Positions 1-14,905 of a stretch of DNA of 64,000 bases are shown in pieces. A program made the translations under genes and the position numbers. Source of the stretch: Viridibacillus arenosi (GTDB lineage: Bacteria > Bacillota > Bacilli > Bacillales_A > Planococcaceae); NCBI RefSeq assembly GCF_001955655.1, contig NZ_MSPW01000014.1, positions 1 through 64,000 on the forward strand, written 5' to 3'. Every line of letters starts with the position of its first letter. The stretch's first letter is position 1. The notes below the pieces were generated by a model. The model saw nothing but the letters and a program-made list of their open reading frames with translations, ran no database searches and was not told where the DNA came from.

Positions 1-21
1 ATTAAAAGGAGGTGAAAACAA

Positions 22-99
22 ATGAAAATTAAAGCGAAACCAATGCAAATTAAGAATCTTAAAAATGTAGCACGTTACGGCGGTTCATGTAAATGCTAA
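22..99 (+). CDS. RiPP-like precursor peptide 1, 25 aa
   Basis: An ATG preceded by a very strong AAAGGAGGTG site encodes a 25-residue peptide. Residues 1-15 (MKIKAKPMQIKNLKN) are lysine-rich and have no acidic residue. The tail is VARYGGSCKC, with a Gly-Gly pair and two cysteines, the last one C-terminal. The next gene repeats the leader exactly and varies the tail, which is the classic pattern of ribosomal peptide precursors with a conserved leader and variable core. It lies directly upstream of a codirectional locus with an ATP-grasp ligase, acyl-transfer enzymes, M16 peptidases and an exporter, which supports a substrate role. The modification and the cleavage site are unknown. Being a precursor is inference; the ORF and its RBS are seen directly. 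Confidence 0.8.
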   Translation: MKIKAKPMQIKNLKNVARYGGSCKC

Positions 100-111
100 A
101 TCGATTGGTAG

Positions 112-152
112 TTAACATGTCGAAAACTAATGAATAGTTTTCGACATGTTAA
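112..152 (+). promoter_or_regulatory. 17-bp perfect hairpin between the two precursor genes
   Basis: Bases 112-128 and 136-152 are exact reverse complements around a 7-nt loop (129-135). No T-tract follows; the second RBS begins just after the stem. It may be an RNA processing or stability element, or a way to tune the dose of the second peptide. Confidence 0.7.
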
Positions 153-168
153 AAGGAGGTGAAAACAA

Positions 169-249
169 ATGAAAATTAAAGCGAAACCAATGCAAATTAA
201 GAATCTTAAAAATATAGTTCGTTACGGCGGTGCATGCGGTAAATGCTAA
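169..249 (+). CDS. RiPP-like precursor peptide 2, 26 aa
   Basis: This is the second copy of the short peptide gene, with the same AAAGGAGGTG site and an identical leader through residue 15. The tail is IVRYGGACGKC: against copy 1 it has V-A changed to I-V, S to A, and one extra Gly between the cysteines. RYGG, the Cys and the Lys-Cys end are kept. Selective conservation of Arg-Tyr-Gly-Gly and both cysteines suggests that these are the processed or modified residues. No double-glycine (C39) peptidase is seen nearby, so the M16 pair at 10421-13948 is the best candidate for maturation. Confidence 0.82.
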   Translation: MKIKAKPMQIKNLKNIVRYGGACGKC

Positions 250-256
250 AAGTGGA

Positions 257-298
257 TATAAAAGAAATTCCCCTTCCCTAGATGGGGTTTCTTTTATA
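257..298 (+). terminator. Terminator-like hairpin after the precursor genes
   Basis: Arms 257-273 and 284-298 pair over about 15 bp with a 2-nt bulge. The GC pairs (CCCC/GGGG) sit near the apex and the descending arm is T-rich (TTTCTTTTATA). A leaky terminator between short precursor genes and modifying enzymes would keep the peptide in excess over the enzymes, as in many RiPP loci. Confidence 0.65.
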
Positions 299-325
299 AC
301 TTAAAATAAAAGGGTGACCAATACA

Positions 326-1258
326 TTGATATACATTGATTATATTGAAAACTATATTCCTGAAAAAGTAATAGACATATCAGAATTACAGGATTACTTA
401 AATTTAAAAAATTATCAAATTAAAGTTTTTAAAAAAATCCACGGATTAAAAGAAATCAGGAAAGAAGAAGGTTCATTAACAAAATTATTAAGTACGCCAA
501 TATTAAATATATTTGAGCGAAACAGTAGTTTTAGACAGGAAATTAAATACATTATTTATTGTCATACTATTCAGAATGTTCACCCATTTCCGTTGGATAT
601 GTTTAAAGAAATAAGTGAAATTTGCAATATACATAATACGATAAATTTTTCAATAAATCAACAAAATTGCGCTTCAAGTCTAGTCGCATTAGAAATTGCA
701 GACAGCTTATTAAATAGTACAGATAAAAATGATAAGGTGCTCTTGTTAATGGGGGAAAAGGTTTTCAATCCAATTATGCAATTAATTAATAATACCACTA
801 TTTTAGGAGAGGCATCAACAGCAGTCATCTTATCTAGAAATAGTAATAAAAATATTAAGTTTATTAAAACAAAAACTAAAATATTAGGGAAATATGCTGA
901 AGGAATCGGCATTAGTCAGGAAGAACAAAAACAATTCGAAAAAAATTATGTACCAACCTTGTCAGCATTAATAATAGAAACGGTTAATGATCTTGATTTA
1001 GAATTGTCAAAAATATCTCTAATCTTACCGCATAATGTGAATGTATCTTCTTGGAAACAGATATCTAAATCCTTAGAGTTTCCTATCCAAAAAATATATT
1101 TAAAAAATGTGGAGAAATATGGACATTGCTTTTGCTCTGATCCATTTTTAAATTTAGATTGTGCAATCAGTGATGGCCTGTTAAAAAAAGGTGATTATTT
1201 CTTGATGGTTTCAGTTGGCTTAGGTGCAACGTTTGCTGTGAGCCTATTTCAATTTTAA
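326..1258 (+). CDS. KAS III (FabH)-like condensing/acyl-transfer enzyme A
   Basis: A thiolase-fold KAS III-like protein of about 310 aa. The nucleophile region reads NQQNCASSLVALEIA, with Cys near residue 115. A His follows in LPHNVN (the FabH HxxN region). The FabH Asn motif is replaced by GHCFCSD, with an Asp in the position seen in Cys-His-Asp acyltransferases of the CerJ type. It is the only one of the four KAS III-like proteins here that keeps both Cys and His, so it is the likeliest catalytic member, as a condensing enzyme or an acyltransferase. The TTG at 326 is preferred because AAAAGGG sits 11 nt upstream and the start then aligns with the paralogue at 5065. A GTG at 314 is the alternative. 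Confidence 0.85.
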   Translation: MIYIDYIENYIPEKVIDISELQDYLNLKNYQIKVFKKIHGLKEIRKEEGSLTKLLSTPILNIFERNSSFRQEIKYIIYCHTIQNVHPFPLDMFKEISEICNIHNTINFSINQQNCASSLVALEIADSLLNSTDKNDKVLLLMGEKVFNPIMQLINNTTILGEASTAVILSRNSNKNIKFIKTKTKILGKYAEGIGISQEEQKQFEKNYVPTLSALIIETVNDLDLELSKISLILPHNVNVSSWKQISKSLEFPIQKIYLKNVEKYGHCFCSDPFLNLDCAISDGLLKKGDYFLMVSVGLGATFAVSLFQF

Positions 1259-1270
1259 TGGAGGTGTGAG

Positions 1271-2647
1271 ATGGAAAATATAGGTTGTAATTTAAGTGCT
1301 CATCTAAAAAAAGCACTAGTAGACGACGAAAAAGCAAAATTTATATATATTAATAACTTTGAAGTTGAACAGTATTGGAAACCGCCAGAAACGGTAGGTA
1401 TTCCTTCGGTTTCCATTGGTAATGCAAGGTTGATGGTCAATAGATTGGAAGAACAAGGTGTATTACTTGCCAGCCCAACAGATATTGTAATTCTAAAACG
1501 ACCTGTCAGTACTCACTTCTTGCAGTATTTACAAAGTTTACTAGAGTGTCCGGGTATTATCTATGTTGAGAACAGTAATCCAAACTTAAATATTACGAAG
1601 GACATTCTAAATTGCCAAAAAACAATTCAACATCTAAAAGAACTGAAAAATACGAATAATAACATTTACTTTATGCCTTATGGATGTTCTGAGTACGAAG
1701 AACAGCTCTCAGAATTAACAGGTATTCCTCTTGCAGTGCCAAGTAGTCATGTTTTTAGCAAAGTAAACACTAAAGTATATAGTCGTGTTCTGAATCAAAA
1801 AGTAAATATCAGGCAGATTCCTGGAGGGGAGTGTGATTCCGTAGATAGTTTGTTAGAGACATATCAAAACTTGAAGCATTATCTAATAAGTGGAGAAAGA
1901 TTAGTCTTAAAGGAATCTCTGGGTGTGTCAGGAAAAGGATTAATTATTATTGATTCGGAAGAAAAATTTAATAAAGCAATTAAGATGATAGAAAAAGGGC
2001 TTAATAAAAAAAACAATGGAAAAGTGAGCTTTGTTTTAGAAAAATGGATTAGGAAAACAGCTGATATTAATTATCAAATACTAATTGAAAGAAACGGCAA
2101 AGTTATTTATTACGGTGCAAAGGAATGCATTGTAGAAGATGGAGTTCATCGTGGACATCTTTATCCAACTTACATCACAAGAAAGCTGGATGAAGAACTG
2201 CGTAAAGCTGGAGAAAAAATAGGTAGACAATTATATCAAGACGGTTATTACGGAATAGTTGGAATCGATGCGATATATGATCAGGAGGATATGCTTTGGC
2301 CAAACCTTGAAATCAATGCACGATTTAATATGGCCTCCTACCAAATGAGAATACAAGAAAATTTTTTACAAAATCAAGGGCACGCATTAGCAAAATATTA
2401 TGAATTAAAGTTGAGTCGTCAAATATCATTTAATGAAATATTTACTTTACTTGAAAACTTTATGATTACTACCAATGGACAAGAAGGTTTCTTAATTAAC
2501 AATTTTGCGACTGTTAACTCCGGTTTCAGTAAAGAAGGTAAGTTTTTCAAGGGGAGATTGTACGGAGTTTTAATGGCAAGTAATATGGGTTCACTGTTTG
2601 ATTTGGATCGTAGAATACAGATTCAATTAAATAAAATTCAAGAATGA
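1271..2647 (+). CDS. ATP-grasp amino acid ligase, BtrJ-like
   Basis: A 458-aa ATP-grasp protein. The nucleotide-binding lysine strand (RLVLKESLGVSGKG) lies near residues 210-225, a central FVLEKWIRK segment follows, and a metal-binding end reads NLEINARFNM. It is followed directly by a PLP decarboxylase and an ACP. That trio matches butirosin BtrJ (ATP-grasp, loads glutamate on the ACP), BtrK and BtrI. I infer that it activates an amino acid as an acyl phosphate and attaches it to the phosphopantetheine of the ACP at 3972. It could instead ligate an amino acid to the precursor peptide. It starts 12 nt after the previous gene, with a GGAGGTG site. Confidence 0.82.
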   Translation: MENIGCNLSAHLKKALVDDEKAKFIYINNFEVEQYWKPPETVGIPSVSIGNARLMVNRLEEQGVLLASPTDIVILKRPVSTHFLQYLQSLLECPGIIYVENSNPNLNITKDILNCQKTIQHLKELKNTNNNIYFMPYGCSEYEEQLSELTGIPLAVPSSHVFSKVNTKVYSRVLNQKVNIRQIPGGECDSVDSLLETYQNLKHYLISGERLVLKESLGVSGKGLIIIDSEEKFNKAIKMIEKGLNKKNNGKVSFVLEKWIRKTADINYQILIERNGKVIYYGAKECIVEDGVHRGHLYPTYITRKLDEELRKAGEKIGRQLYQDGYYGIVGIDAIYDQEDMLWPNLEINARFNMASYQMRIQENFLQNQGHALAKYYELKLSRQISFNEIFTLLENFMITTNGQEGFLINNFATVNSGFSKEGKFFKGRLYGVLMASNMGSLFDLDRRIQIQLNKIQE

Positions 2648-2665
2648 GGGGAGGAAACAAGATAA

Positions 2666-3943
2666 ATGGTATATGAAATACAAGGAATACCTATAAGTGA
2701 TTTAGCAGAAAAATATGGTACACCTCTTTATATATATGACGGGCAAGAAATTTCTAATATATTTTTAGAGTTGAAAAGCAATATTACAAAGCATCTTGAA
2801 GTATTTTTTTCTTTAAAATCGAACCCTAATATTTCTGTCTATAACTTGCTAAAATCATTGGGAGCAAAAGCTGAAGTTTCTTCATTGACAGAATTAAAAA
2901 CGGTCCTAATGGCAAATACAGATCCAGAAAATATTATTTTTTTAGGGCCGGGAAAAAGTGAAGAAGAAATTACAAGTTGTATCGATCATTCTATTTATGC
3001 AATCGTATGCGAATCTTTTCAAGAATTAGAATTAATCAATAAAATTGCTTCTATTCGCAAAAAGAGAGCACGTGTGGCAATTAGAGTGAATCCAACATTT
3101 TCAATTAAAGGTTCTAGGCTTGCAATGGGAGGAAAGCCTCGGCAATTCGGAATAGATGAAGAAATAGTATTTCAAAATTTAGCCTTGCTAAAGTCATATG
3201 AAAATGTGGATATTATTGGAATTCAAGTATACATGGGGACAAGAATTTTAGATGAGAATGTGATCTGCCAAAACACAATTAACATTTTAAAGTTGGCAGT
3301 ACGGTTTAGTGAACAAACGGGTCTAGCATTACAATTTGTCGATATTGGTGGAGGATTAGGCGTACCTTATTTTAGTAATGAAGAGGATCTTAATATACAA
3401 AAATTAGGTGAACAACTATCTCCTATTATTAATGATTTTAAAGACTCTTTTCCGAATACAAAGCTGGCGATGGAAGTAGGAAGATATCTCGTTGCTAAAT
3501 CTGGCATGTTTGTATCCAAAGTCAATTATATAAAAAAATCTAGAGAAGAAAATTTCATTATAACAGATGGTGGAACAAATTGTCATATGGCTGCAGTCGG
3601 AATAGGTAGTTTTGTTAAAAGAAATTTTCCTATGAAGAATTTAACGAATTTAGATGAGGCGGACATTGATACTTATAATGTAACGGGTCCACTATGTACT
3701 CCAAATGATGTGGTTGGAAAAAATGTTGAACTCTCAAAGGTCCAAAGAGGGGATCTTATTGGGATTTTACAATCAGGTGCATACGGTCCAAGTGCATCAC
3801 CTGGTCTGTTTTTAAGTCATGGTTTTCCTGCTGAAGTGTTGATTCATAGTGGGAAACACTATCTGGTTAGAAGACGTGATAATTCAGAGGATATTATAGG
3901 CAAACAAATACTAGTTAATGAAAAGATATTTCATTTAGTTTAA
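2666..3943 (+). CDS. Fold-type III PLP decarboxylase, BtrK-like
   Basis: A 425-aa member of the ornithine/diaminopimelate decarboxylase-2 family. The PLP lysine is in FFSLKSNPN near residue 50. The glycine-rich phosphate loop is DIGGGLGVPY, and the second-subunit cysteine motif is GPLCTPND rather than the CESGD typical of LysA. The length equals that of BtrK, which decarboxylates glutamyl-S-ACP to the gamma-aminobutyryl thioester. With the adjacent ligase and ACP, decarboxylation of an ACP-bound amino acid is the best reading; the substrate (Glu or another acid) cannot be told from sequence. A housekeeping LysA role is unlikely in this context. Confidence 0.85.
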   Translation: MVYEIQGIPISDLAEKYGTPLYIYDGQEISNIFLELKSNITKHLEVFFSLKSNPNISVYNLLKSLGAKAEVSSLTELKTVLMANTDPENIIFLGPGKSEEEITSCIDHSIYAIVCESFQELELINKIASIRKKRARVAIRVNPTFSIKGSRLAMGGKPRQFGIDEEIVFQNLALLKSYENVDIIGIQVYMGTRILDENVICQNTINILKLAVRFSEQTGLALQFVDIGGGLGVPYFSNEEDLNIQKLGEQLSPIINDFKDSFPNTKLAMEVGRYLVAKSGMFVSKVNYIKKSREENFIITDGGTNCHMAAVGIGSFVKRNFPMKNLTNLDEADIDTYNVTGPLCTPNDVVGKNVELSKVQRGDLIGILQSGAYGPSASPGLFLSHGFPAEVLIHSGKHYLVRRRDNSEDIIGKQILVNEKIFHLV

Positions 3944-3971
3944 TACAATAATAGAAAGGAATTGATAAATA

Positions 3972-4226
3972 ATGAGTAAGAATACTTTTGAGGTGGCTAT
4001 AGCAGCATTAAGAGAAGTGTTGGATATTGATGAGATGGAGGAAATACTACCTGAAACAACATTAGAATCATTAAGTCTTGATTCTACATCGATTTTTGAA
4101 CTTTTAATGGTTTTGGAAGACAATATTGAGGGATTATCTATAGATCCCGAAGACATTGAACCGGAATATTTTGAATCCGTAGAGACAATTGTTGATTATA
4201 TTGATAAATCTTTAGTAAATGCATGA
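3972..4226 (+). CDS. Acyl (aminoacyl) carrier protein
   Basis: An 84-aa acidic helical protein with the 4'-phosphopantetheine motif LDSTS; the modified serine is Ser38 after Asp37. It has the normal ACP length. It has a good AAAGGA site and follows the decarboxylase by 28 nt. It should carry the amino acid loaded by the ATP-grasp enzyme and present it to the decarboxylase, the KAS III-like proteins and the acyl-CoA dehydrogenase-like proteins. No phosphopantetheinyl transferase is encoded in the locus, so a cellular one (AcpS or Sfp type) must act on it. Confidence 0.9.
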   Translation: MSKNTFEVAIAALREVLDIDEMEEILPETTLESLSLDSTSIFELLMVLEDNIEGLSIDPEDIEPEYFESVETIVDYIDKSLVNA

Positions 4227-4238
4227 ATGAATGAATGA
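4223..4238 (+). repeat. (ATGA)4 tetranucleotide repeat at the ACP stop/next start
   Basis: Four perfect ATGA units span the ACP stop codon (TGA 4224-4226) and the ATG of the next gene (4235). Each unit is a start/stop overlap, so ribosomes ending on the ACP could restart without a separate RBS, which is otherwise weak here. Change in unit number would shift the coupling. Confidence 0.8.
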
Positions 4239-5062
4239 GTATGATAAAAATTAATTCGTATGTATGTAAACGGTTCTTGGAAAAGAGGTCATATACTCAT
4301 AGTATTGGGGAAATTCAATTTCAAACAGATTTAGCAGATATGTATGGACTTAAGGTGGATGAATCTCTATTGAATTCGGGGTTGAATAATTCATTTAGTT
4401 TTATGGGAACTAGCTTAATAGATCAATTATTAAAAACCGGGAATAAAATCGATGATGTAGATTTAGTCGTTTTAGTTTATTGTATCCCTGATATCAATCC
4501 GTCCATTTCAACTGTCAATTACTTAATTGAAAAATATAATCTAAATGCAAAAGGTTTTGCTGTTTCAGCAGTAGATACTTATGCTCCTTTTGCAGCAGTA
4601 AAAATCATCAAAGAGTTATTTTTTACAAAGAAGTGTAAAAAGGCACTTTTGTTAATGCTCGATCAATCTACATTATCATATTATGCTCCAGGTGTTAAAG
4701 ATATTGAAGATACAGCAATTGCTTGTCTATTTGAAAAAAATGGAACTGGTCCTTGTCTTGAACTGAATGAGTGGGGTTATGAATCCAATACTAATCTGCA
4801 TGAATGGATGAAAAAAATGAATCTAAATCAAAGTGATGATCAGTATATTATTTCGTCCAATCTAGAAGAGAAATATACAGAAATGCCATCCGAAATCACC
4901 TTTATTGCTTCCTCTAAGCAATTATGCACGTCCTTGTTTGCAAAGTTATTAAAATTAATACAAAAGGGCAAGATTCAGGGAGATTCATCTATTTATTTGT
5001 TAGATGGAAGCTTAAAGGAAAATGAACTGTATTATATGAAATTTAGCATACTTGGAGGTTGA
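4235..5062 (+). CDS. KAS III-like protein B lacking the catalytic cysteine
   Basis: A 275-aa KAS III-like protein, shorter than usual. The segment aligned with the nucleophile elbow reads FAVSAVDTYAPFAA, so the Cys is replaced by Val, and the His/Asn region is also missing near the shortened C-terminus. The fold signature GDSSIYLLDGS near the end is still visible. It is likely a non-catalytic partner (comparable in principle to a chain-length factor) of a Cys-bearing paralogue, possibly the one that follows with almost no gap. The start at 4235 is supported by the ATGA coupling repeat; a second in-frame ATG lies at 4241. Confidence 0.72.
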   Translation: MSMIKINSYVCKRFLEKRSYTHSIGEIQFQTDLADMYGLKVDESLLNSGLNNSFSFMGTSLIDQLLKTGNKIDDVDLVVLVYCIPDINPSISTVNYLIEKYNLNAKGFAVSAVDTYAPFAAVKIIKELFFTKKCKKALLLMLDQSTLSYYAPGVKDIEDTAIACLFEKNGTGPCLELNEWGYESNTNLHEWMKKMNLNQSDDQYIISSNLEEKYTEMPSEITFIASSKQLCTSLFAKLLKLIQKGKIQGDSSIYLLDGSLKENELYYMKFSILGG

Positions 5063-5064
5063 AT

Positions 5065-5991
5065 GTGAGTTTTGGAATTGCAAAAATTGGCACATATATC
5101 CCGAGCCTAAGGCAAAAGATTGATGAAGTATTAGAGTACTCTGGCTGCAATGAAAGAGAAATAAAATTAATGAAAAGATTACACAATATCCATCAAGTTC
5201 CCATTGTTGAAAATGGACAAAGATTGGAAGAGACCCTTCGTTATGCATTACTAGACCTTCATTTAGATATAAAAGTTGATTTAGTCTTGTATGCTCATTC
5301 GTTACTGGCGCAAGTTCCACATGATTATGGGTTGTTAAATAAAGTCTTAATGCCATTTGATTTATTAAGCACAAAAAAATTCGGGATTGCTCAAGAGGCA
5401 TGTGCTTCTTCCTTTTATGCAATGGAGCTCGCAGACTTGTATTTTGCAAAGAAAAAAAATGTAAATACGATTCTATTAATCTTGGGAGACCAATCCAATA
5501 TGACTACTAGATTAAGATATATAGAAAATTCTACCGTTATTGGAGATTCGGCAGTGGCAGTTCTGTTACAGAAAAAAAACGAAACAAATAAAGTACTGTC
5601 CATCGGTGTTTATAGGGATACTCGTTTTAATCAAGGGTTTTACGAAAATCCCCAAAAAACAGCTTTATTTAACGAAGAATACGTTTCCATTATTATTAAG
5701 GCGATACATGAAACATTGACAAAGGCGAATGTAGTTCTCGATGAAATTCAATATATTCTTCCCTACAATGTGAATAAAATGACTTGGAGAAAGTTTTCAA
5801 AACTTACCCATTTTCCTTTAGAAAACATCATTTTGGATTTACTTCCCGAGATTGGCCATACGTATACAACAGATTGCTTTATAAATTTAGATTATTTACA
5901 ATCTCAAAATAGATTAAAAAAGGGAGATAAGATTTTAATGGTAAGTGTAGGATTAGGTTGTTTTGTGGGATCTGCTGTCATTGAACATTAA
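5065..5991 (+). CDS. KAS III (FabH)-like protein C, Cys present
   Basis: A protein of about 308 aa, closely similar in layout to protein A. The nucleophile region is AQEACASSFYAMELA (Cys about residue 113). The usual His is Tyr (LPYNVN), while GHTYTTD, with its Asp, is kept. A Cys without the His suggests acyl transfer or acyl holding rather than decarboxylative condensation. The GTG at 5065 is preferred over the TTG at 5059 because GGAGG at 5054-5058 touches the TTG but leaves 6 nt to the GTG. The RBS lies inside the end of the preceding gene, consistent with coupled expression of B and C. Confidence 0.8.
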   Translation: MSFGIAKIGTYIPSLRQKIDEVLEYSGCNEREIKLMKRLHNIHQVPIVENGQRLEETLRYALLDLHLDIKVDLVLYAHSLLAQVPHDYGLLNKVLMPFDLLSTKKFGIAQEACASSFYAMELADLYFAKKKNVNTILLILGDQSNMTTRLRYIENSTVIGDSAVAVLLQKKNETNKVLSIGVYRDTRFNQGFYENPQKTALFNEEYVSIIIKAIHETLTKANVVLDEIQYILPYNVNKMTWRKFSKLTHFPLENIILDLLPEIGHTYTTDCFINLDYLQSQNRLKKGDKILMVSVGLGCFVGSAVIEH

Positions 5992-6017
5992 GAATTTATT
6001 ATAAAAGGAGATAAATA

Positions 6018-6713
6018 ATGTCAACACTTTTATCATCAAAAAATGAGAATTTATTGAACTATATAAATCGATTTTTAGAAGAGACCCGTGGTTTGAGCCT
6101 TTTTGAAGCTTTTGAATGGATTTTCAAAGCCTTTGAAAATCCAATTATTATATCATCCAATAATTATTTTCTTGCTCCTCACTCTGTTCTAGAGAATCCG
6201 AATACGCATATTCTTAGAGGTAATAATCTCTATCAATTGACCGAACTAAAATTTAATAAGGTTAATAATCATTTCATGGAACATGAAATGATTAGCTTAT
6301 TTAAAATGGATGACATACCTGAGAAGGGGTCCAACCAGATAGAAAATATTCCTTTAACAAAAAATGACTTTGCTTTATTCATACGGACGTGGATTGCATT
6401 GGAATGCCTTGCTTATGATAAAAAGCTTTTGAGCAACCGTTATTCAGGAAAATTACCGATTATTCAATACCAAATGGTGAAAGGGCAGTTTTCGGAGGCC
6501 ATTATTAAAATATATTCAATTATTAACAACTATATCAATGGAAATAGCACATTAGAGAATAAGTCTTTCAATGTATTTATTCACAATGAAATAGATGATT
6601 GTATGAATACTCTGATTAACCTAACTGGTGGTCATGGTGTCCTGACGGAAACAGTGAGCAGAAAAATTTATTTGTCTTTTGTCATCAAAAACCTGTTTGT
6701 AGAATCGGAGTGA
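6018..6713 (+). CDS. Acyl-CoA dehydrogenase-like C-terminal domain protein
   Basis: A 231-aa protein whose last 100 residues resemble the helical C-terminal domain of acyl-CoA dehydrogenases (IQYQMVKGQFSEAII and LTGGHGVLTETVSRKIYL). The N-terminal and middle beta domains seen in the next protein are absent or unrecognisable, and no catalytic Glu motif (EGT) is visible. It overlaps the next gene by 4 nt (GTGA), suggesting a heteromeric complex in which it complements the full-length dehydrogenase. A decayed paralogue is possible, but the intact frame, the AAAGGAG site and the coupling argue for function. Confidence 0.62.
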   Translation: MSTLLSSKNENLLNYINRFLEETRGLSLFEAFEWIFKAFENPIIISSNNYFLAPHSVLENPNTHILRGNNLYQLTELKFNKVNNHFMEHEMISLFKMDDIPEKGSNQIENIPLTKNDFALFIRTWIALECLAYDKKLLSNRYSGKLPIIQYQMVKGQFSEAIIKIYSIINNYINGNSTLENKSFNVFIHNEIDDCMNTLINLTGGHGVLTETVSRKIYLSFVIKNLFVESE

Positions 6714-7876
6714 ATATTTTGAATATAGAAAAATTAAATGCTTTTGAAGAAGCTATTAAATCGTACTCGCAAGAATTTCGGGATATTGGACTAATCATAG
6801 ATGAACAGCCTGATCGGCTACATGAATTTACGGATTTGGCCAGTGTTCAATTGTTATCACGAATGATGATTCCTTCTGAATATAATGATCATCCATTTAT
6901 CATTAATAATACAAAATTTTATGGTTTAACTTGCATTGAGAGAGTCATTGGGACTGAATGGCTTTCCTATGGGGATGCGGGAGTCGTTGTGGGGTGTCCA
7001 GGGCCTTCATTATCTGGAATCATTATTCAAGATTTTGCCGATGGGCAGCAAAAGGAACAGTATTACAGCAAATTGCTATCCAAACCTTGTTGGACTTTTT
7101 TTGCCTTAACTGAGCCTAATAAGGGATCGGATGCCATGCATATTGAAACAAATATGAAGAAAGTAAATGCATGCGATGGGCAAAGGTTATTAAACGGTGA
7201 GAAATATTTCATTGGGAACGGTACTCGGGCGGAAATCGGAGTTGTCTTTGCGCGTACCACAACCGGTCCAATAGGAATTGAAATGTGCTTGATTGAAAAG
7301 GACTCAGATGGTTTTTCTGCCGAAGCACTTGATACATTAGGTCTTCGCGCTCCGAAACTTAGTAGATTAACGTTCCAAAATGTTCGCATAAATGAAGAAC
7401 AGATTATTGGAAGGCATTTAAGCCCTTTAAAAAGAGGAATGCATGGAGCCATTACTGTTTTTAATAAAATGCGTCCTACAGTAGCTGCTATGGCACTGGG
7501 TGTTTCACAAGCAACTTATGATTACATGATTACCAATAAGAAGAATTTATCCTTAGATCAACAACAGAAACTGGAGAATTTTCAAAATGAGCTAATAACT
7601 ACTAGGAATCTCATTCGTCAAGCTGCATTGGAAGTGGATATTAATCCGCGGAATGGTTATGTCGGATCAATTGCAAAAGTGAGAGCTACCTCATTAGTGA
7701 AGCAGATCACTCAATATGCGCTAGATTTATTTGGTGAAGGAGCCTTTTTTGAACATCCATATTTAAACAAATGGTTCAGAGATGCATTTGCGTTTGAAAA
7801 CATGGAAGGTACTTCAAATATATTAAAATTAAATATTTTTCAAAGCTACATGAATGGAAAGATTTCGTATGTATAA
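6710..7876 (+). CDS. Acyl-CoA dehydrogenase family flavoprotein
   Basis: A 388-aa full-length acyl-CoA dehydrogenase fold. The family signature ALTEPNKGSDA lies near residue 135 and the flavin-loop region NGEKYFIGNG near 165. The C-terminal EGTSNILKL contains the Glu in the position of the catalytic base of the SCAD/MCAD class. Relatives in natural-product clusters oxidise ACP-bound aminoacyl groups, for example prolyl-S-carrier to pyrrole or pyrroline. Here it probably introduces a double bond or imine into the chain held on the ACP at 3972. The GTG start overlaps the previous stop; a TTG at 6719 is an alternative. Confidence 0.88.
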   Translation: MNILNIEKLNAFEEAIKSYSQEFRDIGLIIDEQPDRLHEFTDLASVQLLSRMMIPSEYNDHPFIINNTKFYGLTCIERVIGTEWLSYGDAGVVVGCPGPSLSGIIIQDFADGQQKEQYYSKLLSKPCWTFFALTEPNKGSDAMHIETNMKKVNACDGQRLLNGEKYFIGNGTRAEIGVVFARTTTGPIGIEMCLIEKDSDGFSAEALDTLGLRAPKLSRLTFQNVRINEEQIIGRHLSPLKRGMHGAITVFNKMRPTVAAMALGVSQATYDYMITNKKNLSLDQQQKLENFQNELITTRNLIRQAALEVDINPRNGYVGSIAKVRATSLVKQITQYALDLFGEGAFFEHPYLNKWFRDAFAFENMEGTSNILKLNIFQSYMNGKISYV

Positions 7877-8804
7877 CCTATGTGATTTAAATGTATCATT
7901 ATCATCTTTGGCAATTCTACATATGGATCGAAAAAATTATTATTTAGATGGAAAAGAGCCTTCTGATTTTTTTAGGTTAGAACCACATTTGGAAATAGAT
8001 GCATATTATCATAACATTCCAATAGAAACGGTCGAGTCCTATTCTATCAAAATTGACAATCAGCAAGTGACCTTGTCGGAAATGTTACACAAATGCCATA
8101 CGGAACTATTACCAGTAGTGAACAACTATCAGTGTTTATTAATTTCAAATTCGTTTTCAGATCGCCAGCCGGAAATACAGCCGCTGCCAAGAATTTTAGA
8201 ATGGTCCGATAAGAAACCAAAAAATTATTTTGGTGTTTCTCATTTAGGCTCATTAGCTTCTATAGATTGTCTAGAAATTCTGGAACTTTGTTTAAATGAA
8301 GGAGAAGAAGGAATTCTTCTATTAGGAGAACAATTATTTATTGAGCAAAACCGGTACAGGACAGGCTATCTTCCCTTATCAGATTTTGCAATGGGCATGC
8401 ATTTTTCTAAAGGACACGGATCGATTCAAATTCTTCAAATTGGAAATTATCCCTTAGCTGAATATCAATCAAATATAGAAAGTAGTAAAATTCACTTTTC
8501 TAATATCATTAAGCAAATCTATGAATTGGTGTCACATCAACATCAACCGAAGTGGGTTATTGTCCAAAATTTATTTGGTCGAATGGATTTCCTGGAATCC
8601 GATTTGTTTTTTATCCGAAAGACAAATGTTGCTCAGAATTATCAAAGTAGTGATGTCTGGTACACGTTTACCGAATTACTGTTATCAGGAAAATTGAAAA
8701 AAGAAGAGAAGATACTTATAATATCGGCAAACCGGGATTTGAGTACTTCATTTGCAGTTCTTCAGTTTAATGGGATGCCTCTAGTTTCCAGTTTTAAGTG
8801 GTAA
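7854..8804 (+). CDS. KAS III-like protein D lacking Cys and His
   Basis: A 316-aa protein that can be laid on proteins A and C over its length: VSHLGSLASIDCLEILEL matches the nucleophile elbow with Ser in place of Cys, and VQNLFGRMDF matches the His region with Gln. The late KKEEKILIISANRDLSTSFAV strand corresponds to the C-terminal FabH strand. Catalysis by the usual mechanism is therefore unlikely; a structural partner or substrate-binding role is inferred. The gene overlaps the dehydrogenase by 23 nt. An in-frame ATG at 7869, with GGAAAG upstream, is an alternative start. Confidence 0.65.
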   Translation: MERFRMYNLCDLNVSLSSLAILHMDRKNYYLDGKEPSDFFRLEPHLEIDAYYHNIPIETVESYSIKIDNQQVTLSEMLHKCHTELLPVVNNYQCLLISNSFSDRQPEIQPLPRILEWSDKKPKNYFGVSHLGSLASIDCLEILELCLNEGEEGILLLGEQLFIEQNRYRTGYLPLSDFAMGMHFSKGHGSIQILQIGNYPLAEYQSNIESSKIHFSNIIKQIYELVSHQHQPKWVIVQNLFGRMDFLESDLFFIRKTNVAQNYQSSDVWYTFTELLLSGKLKKEEKILIISANRDLSTSFAVLQFNGMPLVSSFKW

Positions 8805-8816
8805 GGAGGAGAAATT

Positions 8817-10208
8817 TTGCCAAGAAATATAGATTATTTAAATGATCGAATTATTCCGTTGATTTATAAAACCTTTATTCCAATGGTATTGGCTTCTTCA
8901 GTTTCGATTGTTACGCAACTGGCCAATACTTTTTTTATGGGGCATGAGCATAAGGAAGCTCTGTATATTGTTGGTTTATATATTCCGTTTTCTTTTTTTA
9001 TGACTGCATTGATTGAAGGTTTTCAAATTTCGAATGCCTCTTCCGTTGCATTTGAAAAAGGAAGGGAAAATACCGAGCAAATACCTAAGTTGATTAATAA
9101 TTACCTTCTATATGGAATCTTAACCAGTTTAATTATTGCGATTTTCATTAGTTTATTAACACCGATGTTCGCCGATTATTTTAACGTTCGTAATGAATCA
9201 ATCAATTTATTTAGGAAGTATACTCGGTTAATGGTCTTTCTTACAATATTCTCAGTAGTAAATGCCATACTGTTATCCAGTATAAGGGGATATGGCCTTG
9301 TAAAGATTTCTTCAGGAATAAGTACGTTTACCTCAGTGTCCAATATCTTATTAGTTTATATTTTTGTAGAATATTACCTTCTTGGCGTTTATAGTATTGT
9401 CCTTGCTAATTTTATTGTAAGTAGTATCTCAATAATCATCAGTCTATTTTTCCTATTAAAATATAAAATTGTAAAATTTCAAATTTTACCTTTTTCATTG
9501 AAAAGATTTAAATTAGAGGAAATTGCCAAACGTAAAATCTTGAATATTGGTATTCCAGTGGCTATTTCGTATATTTTAATCTTTATTAGTACATTTTTCT
9601 TCAATAAAATCCTAATGCCATTTGGAAATGAGGTGGTAGCGGGTTTTGGAGCTGCATATCGATTACAAACAATAGTCCTTCTAATCGCGATATCTTCTGG
9701 TAATACATTAGGTCTTCTTATGAATCAGAATATGGGTGGCAATAATTTAGAACGTTCCTTTGAAATCTATAAGAAAGGAATGATCAATATAGTAGGAATC
9801 TACATTATCATTGGCACGGCCATTTTTTTAGGTAAAGACCTAATCGCTTCTTTTTTAATTGCTGACGGGGAAGTGAGCGTACATACAGCAAATTATTTAA
9901 AGATTGTTGCTTTATCCTATATTATCATGGGACCCATGATGTCATCATTATTGGTGCTTGAACAAATTGGCAAAGGATTTCAGGCGTTCTTTTTAAACTT
10001 TTTATATTTCTTTTTTATCGTTGTAATCGGATGGTTTTTAACAAACCATTACCAGGAAGAGAGTTTATTCTACTGGACAATCAGCTTATTGAATGTTTTC
10101 GCCATAACCGGTATTTTATATAGTTATTTTGTCATCAGGAATAGTTTTCAATTGAAACAAACACAATTGAATAAAGAAATAAAAAGGGCAGTTGAAATGA
10201 ATGGATAA
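8817..10208 (+). CDS. MATE family efflux transporter
   Basis: A 463-aa integral membrane protein with about 12 hydrophobic helices in two halves, typical of MATE/DinF multidrug and natural-product exporters. The TTG start follows a strong AAGGAGGAG site. It sits inside the biosynthetic operon between the modifying enzymes and the peptidases, so export of the mature product, or self-protection, is the likely job. MATE proteins are driven by Na+ or H+ gradients. Confidence 0.9.
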   Translation: MPRNIDYLNDRIIPLIYKTFIPMVLASSVSIVTQLANTFFMGHEHKEALYIVGLYIPFSFFMTALIEGFQISNASSVAFEKGRENTEQIPKLINNYLLYGILTSLIIAIFISLLTPMFADYFNVRNESINLFRKYTRLMVFLTIFSVVNAILLSSIRGYGLVKISSGISTFTSVSNILLVYIFVEYYLLGVYSIVLANFIVSSISIIISLFFLLKYKIVKFQILPFSLKRFKLEEIAKRKILNIGIPVAISYILIFISTFFFNKILMPFGNEVVAGFGAAYRLQTIVLLIAISSGNTLGLLMNQNMGGNNLERSFEIYKKGMINIVGIYIIIGTAIFLGKDLIASFLIADGEVSVHTANYLKIVALSYIIMGPMMSSLLVLEQIGKGFQAFFLNFLYFFFIVVIGWFLTNHYQEESLFYWTISLLNVFAITGILYSYFVIRNSFQLKQTQLNKEIKRAVEMNG

Positions 10209-10293
10209 AAACCAATCTTTTTATATCGTTGAACCGTATTTTGACGAGTATTTAGAGACAGACTTGTATTTCCCCAGTTTTATTAAATTTTAA
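10201..10293 (+). CDS. Possible 30-aa small ORF overlapping the MATE stop
   Basis: An ATG overlapping the end of the MATE gene (ATGAATGGATAA context) opens a 30-codon frame rich in aromatic and acidic residues (FYIVEPYFDEYLETD). It has no strong RBS of its own but could be read by coupling. It is followed by about 125 non-coding bases before the next gene. It may be a real small protein or the 5' remnant of a deleted gene. I do not recognise a family. Confidence 0.35.
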   Translation: MDKNQSFYIVEPYFDEYLETDLYFPSFIKF

Positions 10294-10420
10294 ATAATGA
10301 GTATTTAGCGCCGAGGTATCTAATTTTACTGTTATTAATAATTTGTTTAGCTAAATGTATAGTCGATTTAGATGGCAGTAATTTTTTAAGATTTCTATTT
10401 ATGAAAGCGAGGAAAAATGA

Positions 10421-12646
10421 TTGAATAATTTTTCAAAACAATACGAGGAATTTATATCGGAAGAAGAAATGCTAAGAAGCTACTATAAGGAGCATGGCCT
10501 AACAACGGACCAGTTTTTTCCGTTAATGAATATGGTTATGGAACTATCTCCTCTTAAAATAAATGAATCATACGAGAAAATATGGATGAAGTATTTGGCT
10601 CATAACAGAATGATTAATCGAGAAAGGGTAAATCCAAATTTTGAAATCGACAACTACGATGAAATCATCGGCGAAGAATACATGATGGAAACACTCAATG
10701 AAGGAGGCGCTTTTCTCTCCTGGCATTTTGGTGATTATCGGCATAATGTTGACCAAATCATCAAAGCTTTAAGATTTAAATTTCAAAATAAGAATCGGAA
10801 ATTTTATGTTGTCGTAGACCAAGAATCCTTTGAATCAGAAGGGAAACTGGATTCTTGGGAAAAAATTAGGGAAGAAGCGGGAGTAAAGCTATTAGTCGCA
10901 GAATCAAATCTAATAGCTATCAAATTATTTTATATTTTAAAAGAAAATGACTCCTTCCTATTGTTTCTGGATGGACAAGCAGGATTTAATGAAGATAATA
11001 CAGATATACGGACGAACTTTTTGTCTTCAGAAATAAAAGTGAGAAGCGGTATCTTTAGGATTCTTGAAAGGGCAAAGAAAAAAATATGTATTCTGCTTAC
11101 GACTCTGTCCGAAGATGGAAAAAAGCAAATTATCTTTCATAAGCCTTTTGCAGTAGAACCCAACAAGATAGATGAAGCAGTTAACAAAGCTTTCTCCATT
11201 TTCACATCAGAACTGATGAAAAAGCCTGAATTATGGAGATTGTGGTATAGGCACGATGAACAAGTTGTAGAATGGCATCCATCTGTAAATATTCAAGATG
11301 GGAAGCCAATTCAAATTGATTGGAAAACAAAAAGTCAAAATAGTAGTCAAATATTAGGTCTGGATACCAATCATGCTCGGTTATATGAGCTTGAAACTGA
11401 AGCATTATCATTTGATATTCAGCGAAATTCTGGCATCAATTTTTTTGTTCATACTAATGATAAATACATGAATACAAGTATTAGATTAACCTTTTTATAT
11501 CCATTAAGAAAAGAAATGGCATGTTCTATTGCTATCTTTTCAGAATTATTAATACCCGTCAATATACAGACGAAGTTAGATCATTTGTATGGGGCAATTT
11601 TAAAAAGCAACGTATCGAGAAAAGGGGATTATCATGTCTTAGAATTTGAAATGTCGATTATGCAAAATAATCAACTTGATTCGGATATGATTTCAAAATC
11701 TTTAAAACTATTATCAGAAATCATTAATAGTCCACTGGAAAAAGGATTTGAGTATGAGCGGATAGAAAAAGAATTTACCAGTCACTATTATCGCATTAAA
11801 GAAATGAATGAAAATGTGGAATATGCCGCCCAAGAAATTTGCTTGGCTACTATGACGGAAGGGGAACCATTCAGTATTCCGATTTATGGTGATTTGGACA
11901 CTCTGGAGGAATTAAACGAAGAAATATTGTTACAACATTATCAAGAATTCATATCATCCTCTAAAAAATACATTCATGTAATTGGTCCAAACATTGATGA
12001 AGATAAGATACAAAATGATGCTTGTAGTTATTTTCAACAGGAAGAAGAAAATAATCTTTGTCCACATGGCGACATGCTTTCTCCAGTTCATCAAGAGATT
12101 AAGTATATCGAGCAAGATTTACATGCCAATCAAGGAAGATTGTTGATAGGATTTAAAACAGGTATCAACTTCTCATCATTGGAATATATTCCTTTACTTG
12201 TCTTCAATACTATATTCGGAAATTTACCCGAATCAAAATTACAAACTGAAATCAGACATAATAGAGGAATGGCCTATTATCTAAGTTCTGAAATAGATGA
12301 TTTAAAGGGAATATTATTAGTTCATGTTGCTTTACAAGAAGAAAATTATGAAACAGTGACTGAGATTATCTTAAATGAACTAAACAAAATTCAAGATGGG
12401 CAAGTGAGCGAAGAAGAAATTCAAACCGGTATAAATGCAGTGAAACATTATGTGAAAACTGGCTTAGAAACTCCAGCTATCTTAATAGATATTAGCTTAA
12501 CAGGGGATTTATTGGGTTTTCAAGATGATGAAGAGAAGGTTTTTTCTGTGCTGGAAAATATTTCGAAACGTGATATCGTCGATATTGCAAAAAAGATAAC
12601 GTTAGATACGGTATTCAAATCGGTTAAAAAGGTGGCGAAAATATAA
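10421..12646 (+). CDS. Fusion: acyltransferase-like (LPLAT) domain + non-catalytic M16 peptidase subunit
   Basis: A 741-aa two-part protein. Residues about 80-290 look like the lysophospholipid/lipid A acyltransferase fold (AFLSWHFGDYRHN, then FLLFLDGQAG and an IKVRSGIFRILERAKK basic stretch). The usual HFGNWE motif is altered: His102 is kept, but the acid is at +3 (Asp105) and Arg stands at +5. Residues about 320-741 match the M16B peptidase fold. No HxxEH zinc site is seen, but an R/Y segment (RHNRGMAYYLSS) typical of the partner half is. With the next gene it should form a heteromeric M16 protease. The TTG start follows a GCGAGGAAA site. An acyltransferase joined to a leader peptidase suggests coupled trimming and acyl capping; this is inference. 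Confidence 0.75.
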   Translation: MNNFSKQYEEFISEEEMLRSYYKEHGLTTDQFFPLMNMVMELSPLKINESYEKIWMKYLAHNRMINRERVNPNFEIDNYDEIIGEEYMMETLNEGGAFLSWHFGDYRHNVDQIIKALRFKFQNKNRKFYVVVDQESFESEGKLDSWEKIREEAGVKLLVAESNLIAIKLFYILKENDSFLLFLDGQAGFNEDNTDIRTNFLSSEIKVRSGIFRILERAKKKICILLTTLSEDGKKQIIFHKPFAVEPNKIDEAVNKAFSIFTSELMKKPELWRLWYRHDEQVVEWHPSVNIQDGKPIQIDWKTKSQNSSQILGLDTNHARLYELETEALSFDIQRNSGINFFVHTNDKYMNTSIRLTFLYPLRKEMACSIAIFSELLIPVNIQTKLDHLYGAILKSNVSRKGDYHVLEFEMSIMQNNQLDSDMISKSLKLLSEIINSPLEKGFEYERIEKEFTSHYYRIKEMNENVEYAAQEICLATMTEGEPFSIPIYGDLDTLEELNEEILLQHYQEFISSSKKYIHVIGPNIDEDKIQNDACSYFQQEEENNLCPHGDMLSPVHQEIKYIEQDLHANQGRLLIGFKTGINFSSLEYIPLLVFNTIFGNLPESKLQTEIRHNRGMAYYLSSEIDDLKGILLVHVALQEENYETVTEIILNELNKIQDGQVSEEEIQTGINAVKHYVKTGLETPAILIDISLTGDLLGFQDDEEKVFSVLENISKRDIVDIAKKITLDTVFKSVKKVAKI

Positions 12647-13948
12647 ATGGAATGTCTTCAAAATGAAAAATTAGGCCACTCCGTTTTTTGTGAAACCTTT
12701 AGTAATGGGATGGAAGTACATATGATTCCTCTCAAAGGAATGTCGCAAACATTTGCTGTGTTAAATGTGGATTTTGGTGCTAATGATACAGCTTTTATCA
12801 GTACTACTACAAAGGAAAAGATGGAATTGCCGTATGGGACAGCTCACTTTATGGAACATTTAATTTTCAATCAGAGAAATATGCATGACATGAAAAAAGT
12901 CTTTTCTGAAAACGGGGCATCTATTTCTGCCAAAACTGGCTATAATAATACGGATTTTCTAGTTTCTAGTTCTGGTAATATGGCAGAACTTATTTCCAAA
13001 TTGCTTGCCTCCATTTTAAGTCAAGAATTTACAACAATTGAAATTGAAAATGAAAAAAAAGTGATTAGAGAAGAAATATTAATGTATCAAGATAAACCAA
13101 ACTGGGTAGTTTACAGAAACCTATTAATGCAAATGTATCCTGATCTGCCAATTTGTACAGATGTGGCCGGTACGATAGAAAGTATTAACAGGATAGACAA
13201 AGGATTATTGGTGCAGGCTCATGACATTTATTATAGACCTAACAATATGAAATTGGTGGTTGTAGGTGATGTTCATCCAATTGAACTGTGTGAAAGTATC
13301 TATCATACAGTAGTCCGTGATGAAAATTATGCTGAAAAGAAAAGACATGAATTTGAACTATTTTATCCCAATGCTAAAAATCAATCCTATAAAAATATAT
13401 CAATTATGAAAAATTGCTCCCATGATTTATTTTCGATTGGTTTAAGGCATGAAAAACAAGATGGGAATTATTATGAAAATCATTTAGCAAAACTCGCAAT
13501 TACTGAGGCCCTTTTTGGGTTGGGATCTACATTAACAATGGATTTGTATAGGGAGAACTTAATCAATAATCAATGGGGTTATTCTAATTACAATGGTCCA
13601 AATTATGACTTTACTGTTGTCAGTGGTTCAACGGTGAATATACTTCCGGTAAAAGAAAAGCTATATGAAAAACTTCAAGAGGTAAGAAGGAGCGGTTTGA
13701 ACCCATTTGAAATTGAACGTGTAACAAAAAAAATGATTGGTCAGAAAATGATGCAGATGGAAAATATGAAGGAATTCGCTTTAGCTTATTCCGAAGACTT
13801 ATCCAATGGCTTGAATTACTTTAAAACCTTTGAACATTTATTAAAGATGGACGCCCATCTCGTAAATAGCAGATTAGAATCTATTATTAATTTTGATAAC
13901 TTCTTAAAAACTGATCTTTCTTCGCTACCAATGATTGTGAAGAGATGA
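12647..13948 (+). CDS. M16 zinc metallopeptidase, catalytic subunit
   Basis: A 433-aa M16B peptidase with the inverted zinc motif HFMEH (His67, Glu70, His71). The third ligand is a Glu in IREEILMYQDKP, about 72 residues downstream. A C-terminal half with a partial RY-like region follows. It starts one base after the preceding stop, so the two M16 genes are expressed together. M16 pairs mature ribosomal peptides in other systems (AlbE/AlbF for subtilosin, PqqF). Cutting the 15-residue lysine-rich leader of the peptides at 22-249 is the likely function; the cut site cannot be predicted. Confidence 0.88.
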   Translation: MECLQNEKLGHSVFCETFSNGMEVHMIPLKGMSQTFAVLNVDFGANDTAFISTTTKEKMELPYGTAHFMEHLIFNQRNMHDMKKVFSENGASISAKTGYNNTDFLVSSSGNMAELISKLLASILSQEFTTIEIENEKKVIREEILMYQDKPNWVVYRNLLMQMYPDLPICTDVAGTIESINRIDKGLLVQAHDIYYRPNNMKLVVVGDVHPIELCESIYHTVVRDENYAEKKRHEFELFYPNAKNQSYKNISIMKNCSHDLFSIGLRHEKQDGNYYENHLAKLAITEALFGLGSTLTMDLYRENLINNQWGYSNYNGPNYDFTVVSGSTVNILPVKEKLYEKLQEVRRSGLNPFEIERVTKKMIGQKMMQMENMKEFALAYSEDLSNGLNYFKTFEHLLKMDAHLVNSRLESIINFDNFLKTDLSSLPMIVKR

Positions 13949-14066
13949 GTTTATCGTAGAATTTAGACAGTGAGTTTATAGGTATAGAAAAAGTTGCAAT
14001 CATCTCATTAATTTGATTTTTATATAAATATGTATTTATCACTACATATGTATTAATTATGGAATG

Positions 14067-14213
14067 GTGACTTTTTTGAGTCATAGGCAACATTTCAATC
14101 CATTTTTTCAGACCTATGATTTTGAAATGGGCAGTATTGTTTTGATGATTGTTGGAGTAGTCTTATCTTTTGATTCAATGAACATTTTAAACAGAATTTC
14201 AATACCCTTTTGA
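14067..14213 (+). pseudogene. Possible CcdA-like C-terminal fragment
   Basis: A 48-codon frame (GTG start, weak RBS) whose second half is one hydrophobic helix (GSIVLMIVGVVLSF followed by DSMNILNRIS). It resembles the last helix of CcdA, the thiol-disulfide transporter that supplies electrons to TlpA/ResA proteins. A TlpA-like gene follows, so a truncated ccdA is plausible. The match is too short for certainty. Confidence 0.3.
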
Positions 14214-14244
14214 GGATATCATTGGATTTAAAGGAGGACAATAG

Positions 14245-14766
14245 ATGAAAAAAAGAATGATTGTGCGAACTTTATTTTTAGTAATTATCTTTAGTGCCAT
14301 TACTTACACCGTCTATAGTAACTTCATAAAAGAAACATATGAAATGGTGAAAATAGGAGATGTTGCACCTGATTTTATTCTTGAGGATTTAAATGGGGAG
14401 AAGCATAAATTATCAGACTATAAAGGTAAAGGAGTTGTACTAAATTTTTGGGCAACTTATTGTGATCCATGTAAAGAAGAAATGCCTGATTTAGAAGAAA
14501 ACTATATTAAATATAAATCTAAGGGAGTGGAAATCCTTGCAATTAATAATGCACAAACAACTTTTGAAGTTAAAAAGTTCACTAAAAACATTAGTTTTCC
14601 GATATTGATAGATCACTCAATAGTTGTTTTTAAAAGTTATAATATAGATGCTATACCAACATCGATATTCATCGACTCCGAGGGCACAGTAAAAAAAATA
14701 TCAGTGGGTGGTTTGACCAATAAAGCAATTCAGGAAGATATAGAATTGATTATACCTAATATATAA
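14245..14766 (+). CDS. TlpA/ResA-like membrane-anchored thioredoxin
   Basis: A 173-aa protein with an N-terminal membrane anchor (about residues 7-27) and an extracytoplasmic thioredoxin fold of the AhpC-TSA/Redoxin type. The active site is WATYCDPCKEEMP (Cys73, Cys76), and IPTS gives the cis-proline. Such proteins reduce disulfides outside the cell, classically on apocytochrome c. A strong AAAGGAGG site precedes it. It lies 300 nt after the peptide locus on the same strand. A part in keeping the Cys-containing peptide reduced is possible, but nothing in the sequence proves it. Confidence 0.85.
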   Translation: MKKRMIVRTLFLVIIFSAITYTVYSNFIKETYEMVKIGDVAPDFILEDLNGEKHKLSDYKGKGVVLNFWATYCDPCKEEMPDLEENYIKYKSKGVEILAINNAQTTFEVKKFTKNISFPILIDHSIVVFKSYNIDAIPTSIFIDSEGTVKKISVGGLTNKAIQEDIELIIPNI

Positions 14767-14857
14767 TCATAAGGCTGAATTTTATGAATCAAGATTAACC
14801 TAGTTAAAATCACATTTTTAAAAAGTAATAGTGCATCTATTATACTGAAGAACAGAT

Positions 14858-14905
14858 AGCCCATTCCCCCAAAAATAGAATGGGCTAATTTATTAATTTT
14901 TATGG
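14858..14905 (+). terminator. Hairpin terminator after the thioredoxin gene
   Basis: A 10-bp stem (14858-14867 with 14879-14888, sequence TAGCCCATTC) is followed by ATTTATTAATTTTTA. It lies between converging genes and could serve both. Confidence 0.75.

Follow-up and report, generated by a model that had tools for sequence, protein, structure and literature searches.

A RiPP-like locus of Viridibacillus arenosi, apparently one member of an undescribed family that would join carrier-protein amino-acid chemistry to short Lys- or Arg-bearing peptides

In butirosin biosynthesis, oxidation is carried out by BtrO/BtrV, and transfer and deprotection depend on BtrH/BtrG. Selidamides are matured by a GNAT acyltransferase from precursors that carry an NHLP/N11P-type leader. 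Peptide arginases and acylated ornithines (Orn) are known among ribosomally synthesized and post-translationally modified peptides (RiPPs; PMC12703449). For the bolagladins, an N-acyl-dehydro-beta-alanyl thioester is proposed to arise from Asp through the joint action of a BtrK-like enzyme, an acyl carrier protein (ACP), homologues of KASIII and an acyl-CoA dehydrogenase (ACAD); no bolagladin was made once bolN, encoding the BtrK-like enzyme, had been deleted, loss of the dehydrogenase gene bolQ gave beta-alanine analogues, and enamidonins were in 2020 the only other products named there with dehydro-beta-alanine (PMC7756342). The locus analysed here lies at the left end of a stretch of 64,000 nucleotides from Viridibacillus arenosi (GCF_001955655.1, contig NZ_MSPW01000014.1, positions 1-64,000; this whole stretch is hereafter the window) and places two tiny peptide genes before genes of related kinds.

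The locus appears to belong to a family that has not been described before and which reaches beyond the Bacillales, the range envisaged in an earlier sequence-only reading of the same DNA, into at least two phyla. The reading that we prefer, at somewhat better than even chances, is that of a RiPP-like family in which Lys or Orn side chains receive a unit built on an ACP, peptidases then cut the peptides, and a MATE protein exports the pieces. As expected of RiPPs, a short encoded precursor with leader and core stands beside maturation enzymes, and its synonymous differences (pS) exceed the nonsynonymous ones (pN). In the open-licence PMC literature, most subscription papers and preprints being outside that search, no paper was found with this gene set plus Lys/Arg-repeat peptides, and a word search of the main text of PMC12703449 returned no Paenibacillus, repeat, KAS, acyl carrier or ATP-grasp. 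The system would be a RiPP-type one that is new in its gene set, with a chance of being a class of its own. In its most specific form, which we regard as possible though on balance rather doubtful, this would be a new RiPP class of at least Bacillota and Actinomycetota, in which tandem Lys/Orn residues are each capped with N-acyl-dehydro-beta-alanyl by active plus degenerate KASIII-like pairs, and the chain is cut into many near-identical lipopeptide-like products.

The family was delimited by a genome scan with the ATP-grasp ligase B (letters as in Table 1) as query, one genome per species over 84,980 species, which gave 105 relatives; the counts below cover the best 80 of these plus the window, i.e., 81 loci. 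Grouped by the tree of B, they form a 21-locus clade of Firmicutes with one Bdellovibrio metagenome-assembled genome (MAG), a 19-locus mainly actinobacterial clade, and 41 others. Next to the cassette, 33 of the 81 loci have a gene for a short peptide rich in Lys/Arg, in most cases arranged as a tandem array, with 18 of the 21 in the first clade and 15 of the 19 in the second, and no peptide was accepted among the other 41. Thirty loci were accepted as bearing precursors out of 41 of 80 with matches in a strict repeat scan, the peptides of the window, V. arvi and Bacillus sp. RO2 being added by inspection outside that scan. Codon-block shuffles gave matches in 1, 2, 5, 0 and 3 of 80 loci, and some 100 kb of control DNA (50 kb from the rest of the window plus 14 unrelated loci) gave none. 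The matches of 11 loci (L034, L071, L075, L081, L082, L090, L099, L103, L104, L107 and L109) were dropped because they were R- or S-rich and away from the position of accepted peptides; two additional matches in L043 were also dropped, as was a short MEDAKKNEQEE placed at the G/H gene junction in L035, L036, L046 and L091. A loose periodic-Lys scan lacking a ribosome-site filter was unspecific, matching both control sets as well as 32 of 80 loci, and the strict scan was therefore used instead.

Selection on these peptides is established. Comparison of neighbouring units in 25 of 31 arrays gave a pooled pS of 0.43 versus a pN of 0.16, and 12 leaders gave 0.52 versus 0.18, values that oppose the idea, entertained in the sequence-only reading as a way to refute it, that the peptides are never translated. 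Arg-type cores lie upstream of A in Paenibacillus, where M[VE][IL]KATPITLEQLK is followed by (xARAV)n, and in Bacillus sp. RO2 (VVRCVNATIRCSNITIRC); the repeat of L041 is (ATRADV)n. Lys-type peptides adjoin the cassette in Rossellomorea, Actinophytocola (MAKSAAKAAAK...), Streptomyces ((KAVAT)n), Amycolatopsis, Kutzneria ((VKQS)n), a Paenibacillus MAG, and L067, a short contig labelled Melainabacteria that may be mis-binned, since its B protein falls among Actinobacteria. The G075 peptide is MKKAKVVAAKVVA. In the Paenibacillus MAG (L084, with a different cassette order), two short Lys-rich open reading frames (ORFs), MAKVTQENKIKVA and MTKVGTKVGTKVETKAA, occupy L084:2679-2831, and the gene at 3455 (738 aa) falls into a cluster of ORFs taken by eye as ligases resembling aminoacyl-tRNA synthetases (aaRS).

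Both window peptide ORFs are confirmed, as had been read from the sequence, and have good ribosome sites, AAAAGGAGGTGAAAACAA preceding each ATG. They have in common the 15-residue leader MKIKAKPMQIKNLKN, which is similar to M-x-[IL]-K-A-T-P-I-x-x-x-x-L-K of Paenibacillus and Bacillus sp. RO2; Lys stands before the C-terminal Cys in the window core, and Arg before Cys in that of Bacillus sp. RO2. An NCBIfam search at E 0.001 found no model for them. The feature shared by the family is the Lys/Arg (Lys/Orn) of the core, and the Cys tail, singled out earlier, is local. V. arvi also has two copies, near-identical and separated by a run of 735 N (L023:15203-15937; a scaffold gap or masking). Further tandem copies may be hidden there or at the end of the window contig, because the contig stops just before the array; window base 1 is the contig end, and genes 5' of the peptides are thus out of view. 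A hairpin is found 3' of the last peptide in all six loci folded (z from -1.6 to -5.8; four of the six were first spotted by eye). In window 1-1400 a terminator consensus scan called no terminator, the hairpin included, and an Rfam search of window 1-15000 gave nothing at gathering scores.

Co-occurrence of particular enzymes with the peptide is likewise established, from six-frame searches of the loci in the case of F, I, arginase, GNAT, tricorn and LPLAT. F was found in 32 of 33 peptide loci versus 4 of 48 others (17/18 peptide loci of the Firmicutes clade and 15/15 of the actinobacterial one; 2/7 peptide-less loci inside these clades and 2/41 elsewhere), and I in 32 of 33 versus 2 of 48 (18/18, 14/15, 1/7 and 1/41, respectively), with low scores of 23-46 bits beyond near relatives, i.e., in Actinobacteria and L084. 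A is present in 18/18 Firmicutes peptide loci, 8/15 actinobacterial-clade ones and 40/41 non-peptide loci, and E in 17/18, 8/15 and 40/41. On these counts, A/E look generic to the cassette and F/I linked to the peptide. That the enzymes are widespread without peptides, the other outcome that would have told against the sequence-only reading, is half true, 48 of the 81 loci being peptide-less and 41 of them outside the peptide clades, but these mostly lack F/I.

A linked arginase accompanies the Arg cores in 14 of 14 loci, 13 of which are Paenibacillus and hence not independent events, and is found in none of the 66 other scanned loci and in none of 20 Lys-bearing loci; it is a PF00491 enzyme in the one tested (L033), and a search of the window, V. 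arvi and G075 stretches gave none. The LPLAT domain occurs in 15 scanned loci, those 14 plus V. arvi, and is stand-alone in Paenibacillus (L026:3321-4304). Among 17 Lys-core loci, 15 have a c26-type GNAT, 13 a tricorn protease and 14 a stand-alone condensation domain, the latter also present in L070; no locus has both LPLAT and c26 GNAT. Only the c26 type was counted, and two of two GNAT-looking ORFs of another type, noted by eye in L048, had no Pfam match. M16 genes are found in the window, V. arvi and G145 and, within a K fusion that is cut off, in Bacillus sp. RO2, the other Arg-core stretches ending short of the M16 position, and S9 peptidases occur in some relatives. The G075 stretch encodes a MATE with a GNAT-like tail and a GNAT, plus two further GNATs and AcpS by eye, with no arginase and no M16 on reading it.

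Conservation of the cassette is established as well. Strong matches to B (E 4.5e-75 or better) were found in 5 of 201 genomes, i.e., its own, one congener and three others, the next best being 8.7e-20. The V. arvi locus is near-identical (95-100% per enzyme), with an AcpS-like gene upstream by eye, and genes A to J follow one another in this same order in Bacillus sp. RO2, Rossellomorea and Paenibacillus, most of that order also recurring in part of the Actinobacteria. Bacillus sp. RO2 groups with the window on the B tree (99/87), forming a second lineage of Arg-core loci beside Paenibacillus. Loci of Paenibacillus and Bacillus sp. RO2 are preceded by a gene for an HTH-TPR regulator (L025:8742-9992 and L033:6983-8215, both on the minus strand); it resembles peptide-sensing regulators, and the product might act as a signal. 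A search of viral contigs gave no relative of A, and 21 plasmid records carry a relative of A and 63 one of C at E 1e-60. Two large plasmids from plant-associated strains, L112 (Rahnella) and L113 (Agrobacterium vitis VAR03-1), have a related cassette with a P450 and several adenylating enzymes. The divergent cluster L029 (G175) combines B and C with ACPs and KASIII-like genes, and a glycosyltransferase gene was seen in it by eye.

Table 1. Features of the locus at the left end of the window (aa, amino acids; PLP, pyridoxal phosphate).
Feature	Coordinates	Strand	Description
Peptide 1	22..99	+	Precursor-like, 25 aa; MKIKAKPMQIKNLKN leader, core VARYGGSCKC ending C-K-C
Peptide 2	169..249	+	Precursor-like, 26 aa; leader as in peptide 1, core IVRYGGACGKC ending C-G-K-C
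Hairpin	257..300	+	Between last peptide and A; z -2.3 by folding
A	314..1258	+	KASIII-like; Cys119 and His240 kept, FabH Asn position is His (GHCF)
B	1271..2647	+	ATP-grasp ligase with pre-ATP-grasp domain
C	2666..3943	+	BtrK-like PLP decarboxylase
D	3972..4226	+	Stand-alone ACP
E	4235..5062	+	Degenerate KASIII-like partner; aligns with A and F
F	5059..5991	+	KASIII-like; Cys115 present
G	6018..6713	+	Short ACAD C-terminal-domain-like protein
H	6710..7876	+	ACAD with EGT motif (Glu366)
I	7854..8804	+	KASIII-fold protein
J	8817..10208	+	MATE exporter
K	10421..12646	+	LPLAT-fold acyltransferase domain (assigned by fold) fused to YmfF-like M16 half without HxxEH
L	12647..13948	+	YmfH-like M16 peptidase; HFMEH at residue 67

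The gene set of the window is established and comprises 12 co-directional ORFs over 314-13948, one more than the 11 counted in the sequence-only reading, four of them KASIII-like. They are not mostly overlapping, as had been stated: three of the 11 junctions overlap (4, 4 and 23 nt), one abuts, and the rest are gaps of 8-28 nt apart from 212 nt between the MATE and fusion genes. The kinds of genes assigned earlier did hold: Pfam/NCBIfam searches back A, B, C, D, F, H, J, the M16 part of K, and L (above the YfmH NCBIfam cut-off for L, below the YfmF one for K), and weak matches of E and of G homologues, together with predicted folds, agree for the remainder. Among solved structures, C comes closest to BtrK (E 5.3e-88; the best diaminopimelate decarboxylase reaches 6.6e-57). 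E lacks the nucleophile-loop Cys in the three copies aligned, and its only family match, RppA, is below cut-off. Window G has no Pfam match, its homologues matching PF00441 below cut-off (E 8.3e-4 in L048, 1.7e-3 in L072). I also has no Pfam match and is modelled with a KASIII fold (pLDDT 83; top Foldseek match at E 6.7e-12); a catalytic role is probably lacking. The first 331 residues of K resemble LpxM (5kn7, E 1.4e-9) and PatA by fold (model pLDDT 73), and it is on this fold that their putative LPLAT identity is based. Pfam searches of the operon gave no GNAT and no AMP-binding match, and B probably loads the amino acid onto the ACP. Downstream, at window 15772-18593, a response regulator, an FtsX-type permease and an ABC ATPase resemble a peptide-antibiotic resistance module.

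From these data we infer substrate, acyl group, acceptor atom, single-enzyme roles, order of steps and product as follows. The precursors would be a short leader plus a core with Lys (window) or Arg (relatives), the linked arginase turning core Arg into Orn in Arg-type relatives. B would load an acidic amino acid onto D, most likely Asp through its side-chain carboxyl, and C would decarboxylate it to a beta-alanyl thioester, whose amine the KASIII-like pair A/E would N-acylate and which G/H would desaturate to the N-acyl-dehydro-beta-alanyl (enamide) thioester. The F/I pair and/or the LPLAT domain of K would then move this unit to the Lys/Orn side-chain amine, with the GNAT or the stand-alone condensation domain as transfer candidates in Lys-type relatives. 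Finally, the M16 pair (tricorn or S9 elsewhere) would cut the modified peptide into small pieces, to be exported by the MATE protein. Support is found for the earlier proposals of a peptide paired with M16 proteins and of a decarboxylated, oxidised amino-acid unit passed to a ribosomal peptide, the latter still as a deduction. Readings with the Cys tail as acceptor and with an aminoalkylation like that of elongation factor P (EF-P) were considered and ranked lower.

Among described systems, the bolagladin module BolO/C/N/M/P/Q, compared by description of its proteins, is similar in its BtrK-like decarboxylase, stand-alone ACP, KASIII homologues and ACAD, and differs in that the window has an ATP-grasp loader and no AMP-binding match in the operon, where bolagladin has a beta-Asp adenylating enzyme, as well as four KASIII-like proteins and an apparent acceptor that is a ribosomal peptide, not a non-ribosomal peptide synthetase (PMC7756342). 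Likeness to butirosin BtrI/BtrJ/BtrK resides in the free ACP and ATP-grasp, by family match, and in the BtrK-like decarboxylase, whereas KASIII-like and ACAD genes and the peptide are particular to the window, whose operon has no monooxygenase match. BtrO/BtrV/BtrH/BtrG-type Pfam matches are absent among the 12 operon proteins, of which G and I match nothing, with the upstream region out of view. The BtrK/BtrI-like aminoacyl-ACP logic of the sequence-only reading is upheld, although dehydro-beta-alanine formation in bolagladins is a fuller precedent than butirosin (PMC7756342).

With selidamides the family shares Orn of a ribosomal peptide as the putative acylation site, but their peptide arginase is of PF12640, PF00491 being found here in Arg-type relatives only and not in the window operon (PMC12703449). 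The enteropeptin arginase KgrD, of PF00491, makes Orn in a RiPP and is comparable with the Arg-type relatives, yet its context is thiomorpholine chemistry plus methylation, an ACP pathway being unmentioned in the accessible part of that paper (PMC12703449). Furthermore, the window differs from selidamide loci in a leader of about 15 residues with no NCBIfam model match, in an LPLAT fold in place of GNAT (which is present in the 15 Lys-core relatives above), in an amino-acid unit that would be built on an ACP, and in the tandem cores of relatives. K and L match the families of YmfF and YmfH, associated with 5-aminopentanol on a Lys of EF-P, but the window has an LPLAT fusion, other enzymes and a short peptide as putative target. 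Finally, a separate 33-locus cassette clade of the B tree, which is of the non-peptide kind, recalls the enteromycin carboxamide pathway by its AurF-like oxygenase and methyltransferase, this pathway having a Gly-derived nitronate and no ribosomal peptide (He and Ryan 2021, cited in PMC9967187). Ten loci of this clade have the oxygenase by clustering (Pfam-checked in L072, which also has a weak class-II aaRS match, a methyltransferase and, by eye, a carrier protein); several (L072, L101 and others) show the cassette beside oxygenase and methyltransferase, and one is alphaproteobacterial (Telmatospirillum). The AurF-bearing loci are probably enteromycin-type clusters. Because the cassette matches the bolagladin gene set and this clade has gene kinds like those of the enteromycin pathway, an Asp-derived dehydro-beta-alanyl is by analogy the likelier product unit, not a certain one.

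Several observations weigh against the RiPP-like reading as proposed. LpxM-type acyltransferases have an HX4D/E motif, and Arg replaces its acid in seven of seven LPLAT copies aligned; the catalytic His of F, present in two relatives aligned, is Tyr in the window. A and E are missing from seven of the 15 actinobacterial-clade peptide loci, where another enzyme, perhaps the condensation domain, must replace them, and B differs from the adenylation enzyme BolO. The Arg and two Cys of the window cores are left unused by the scheme. Three PF00491 genes lie on other contigs of the window genome (two only 23-25% identical to the linked arginase), and one of their products could act in trans. Seven loci inside the peptide-bearing clades have no peptide (L034, L052, L087, L049, L061, L063 and L070), none having been overlooked in L070, L049 and L061 upon inspection, and arrays L048, L050 and L056 have a pN/pS of 0.77-1.0. 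The ten peptide-bearing Firmicutes loci that served to make the F and I profiles match them by construction, and the Arg-type counts represent few independent events. All evidence, moreover, comes from genes, sequences and predicted folds.

The strongest rival keeps the RiPP-like logic but takes the unit to be gamma-aminobutyryl or 4-aminocrotonyl from Glu, butirosin-style. It is favoured by the closeness of C to BtrK among solved structures, BtrK being named L-glutamyl-[BtrI ACP] decarboxylase, and by a loader B of the ATP-grasp type with a pre-ATP-grasp domain, an architecture which we take BtrJ to share. It is nonetheless unlikely, considering that (i) KASIII homologues and a dehydrogenase fit bolagladin biosynthesis, in which BolN is likewise of the BtrK type, and (ii) the non-peptide clade has gene kinds named for enteromycin carboxamide, the enteromycin structure including 3-aminoacrylate. 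Alternatively, the peptide could be a disposable scaffold whose full proteolysis frees modified Lys/Orn monomers, the product being non-peptide. Mostly repetitive, simple cores and the presence of M16, tricorn and S9 peptidases with MATE would suit this view, which we consider quite unlikely as residues flanking Lys/Arg are conserved within lineages and the window core is short, Cys-bearing and non-repetitive.

It is more improbable still that the peptide is an unmodified cationic one, with the cassette producing a small molecule of its own, presumably the situation in non-peptide clades: although the 41 loci outside the peptide-bearing clades have the cassette without peptide (A and E in 40, H in 30), F/I, arginase, and GNAT or LPLAT follow the peptide type, and the M16 pair or tricorn plus MATE fit processed small peptides. 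Least credible of all are leader peptides of a Lys/Arg-responsive attenuator, suggested by the hairpins and by ORFs rich in Lys/Arg codons, as opposed to substrates, since peptide gene and cassette run divergently in loci such as L048 and L050, the longest peptide reaches 124 aa, arginase accompanies Arg cores only, and the Rfam and terminator scans above were negative.

If the RiPP-like reading is true, the family would join ribosomal peptides, carrier-protein amino-acid chemistry and arginase-made Orn, so far separate, and would give a ribosomal route to enamide lipopeptides. It would also provide a role for KASIII-like proteins devoid of the catalytic Cys and for LPLAT/GNAT proteins acting on peptides. 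The way in which the linked arginase tracks the core residue (Arg or Lys) amounts to a natural experiment pointing towards the residue that accepts the unit, and genome miners could use tandem Lys/Arg arrays next to KASIII genes of the F/I type as a precursor signature.

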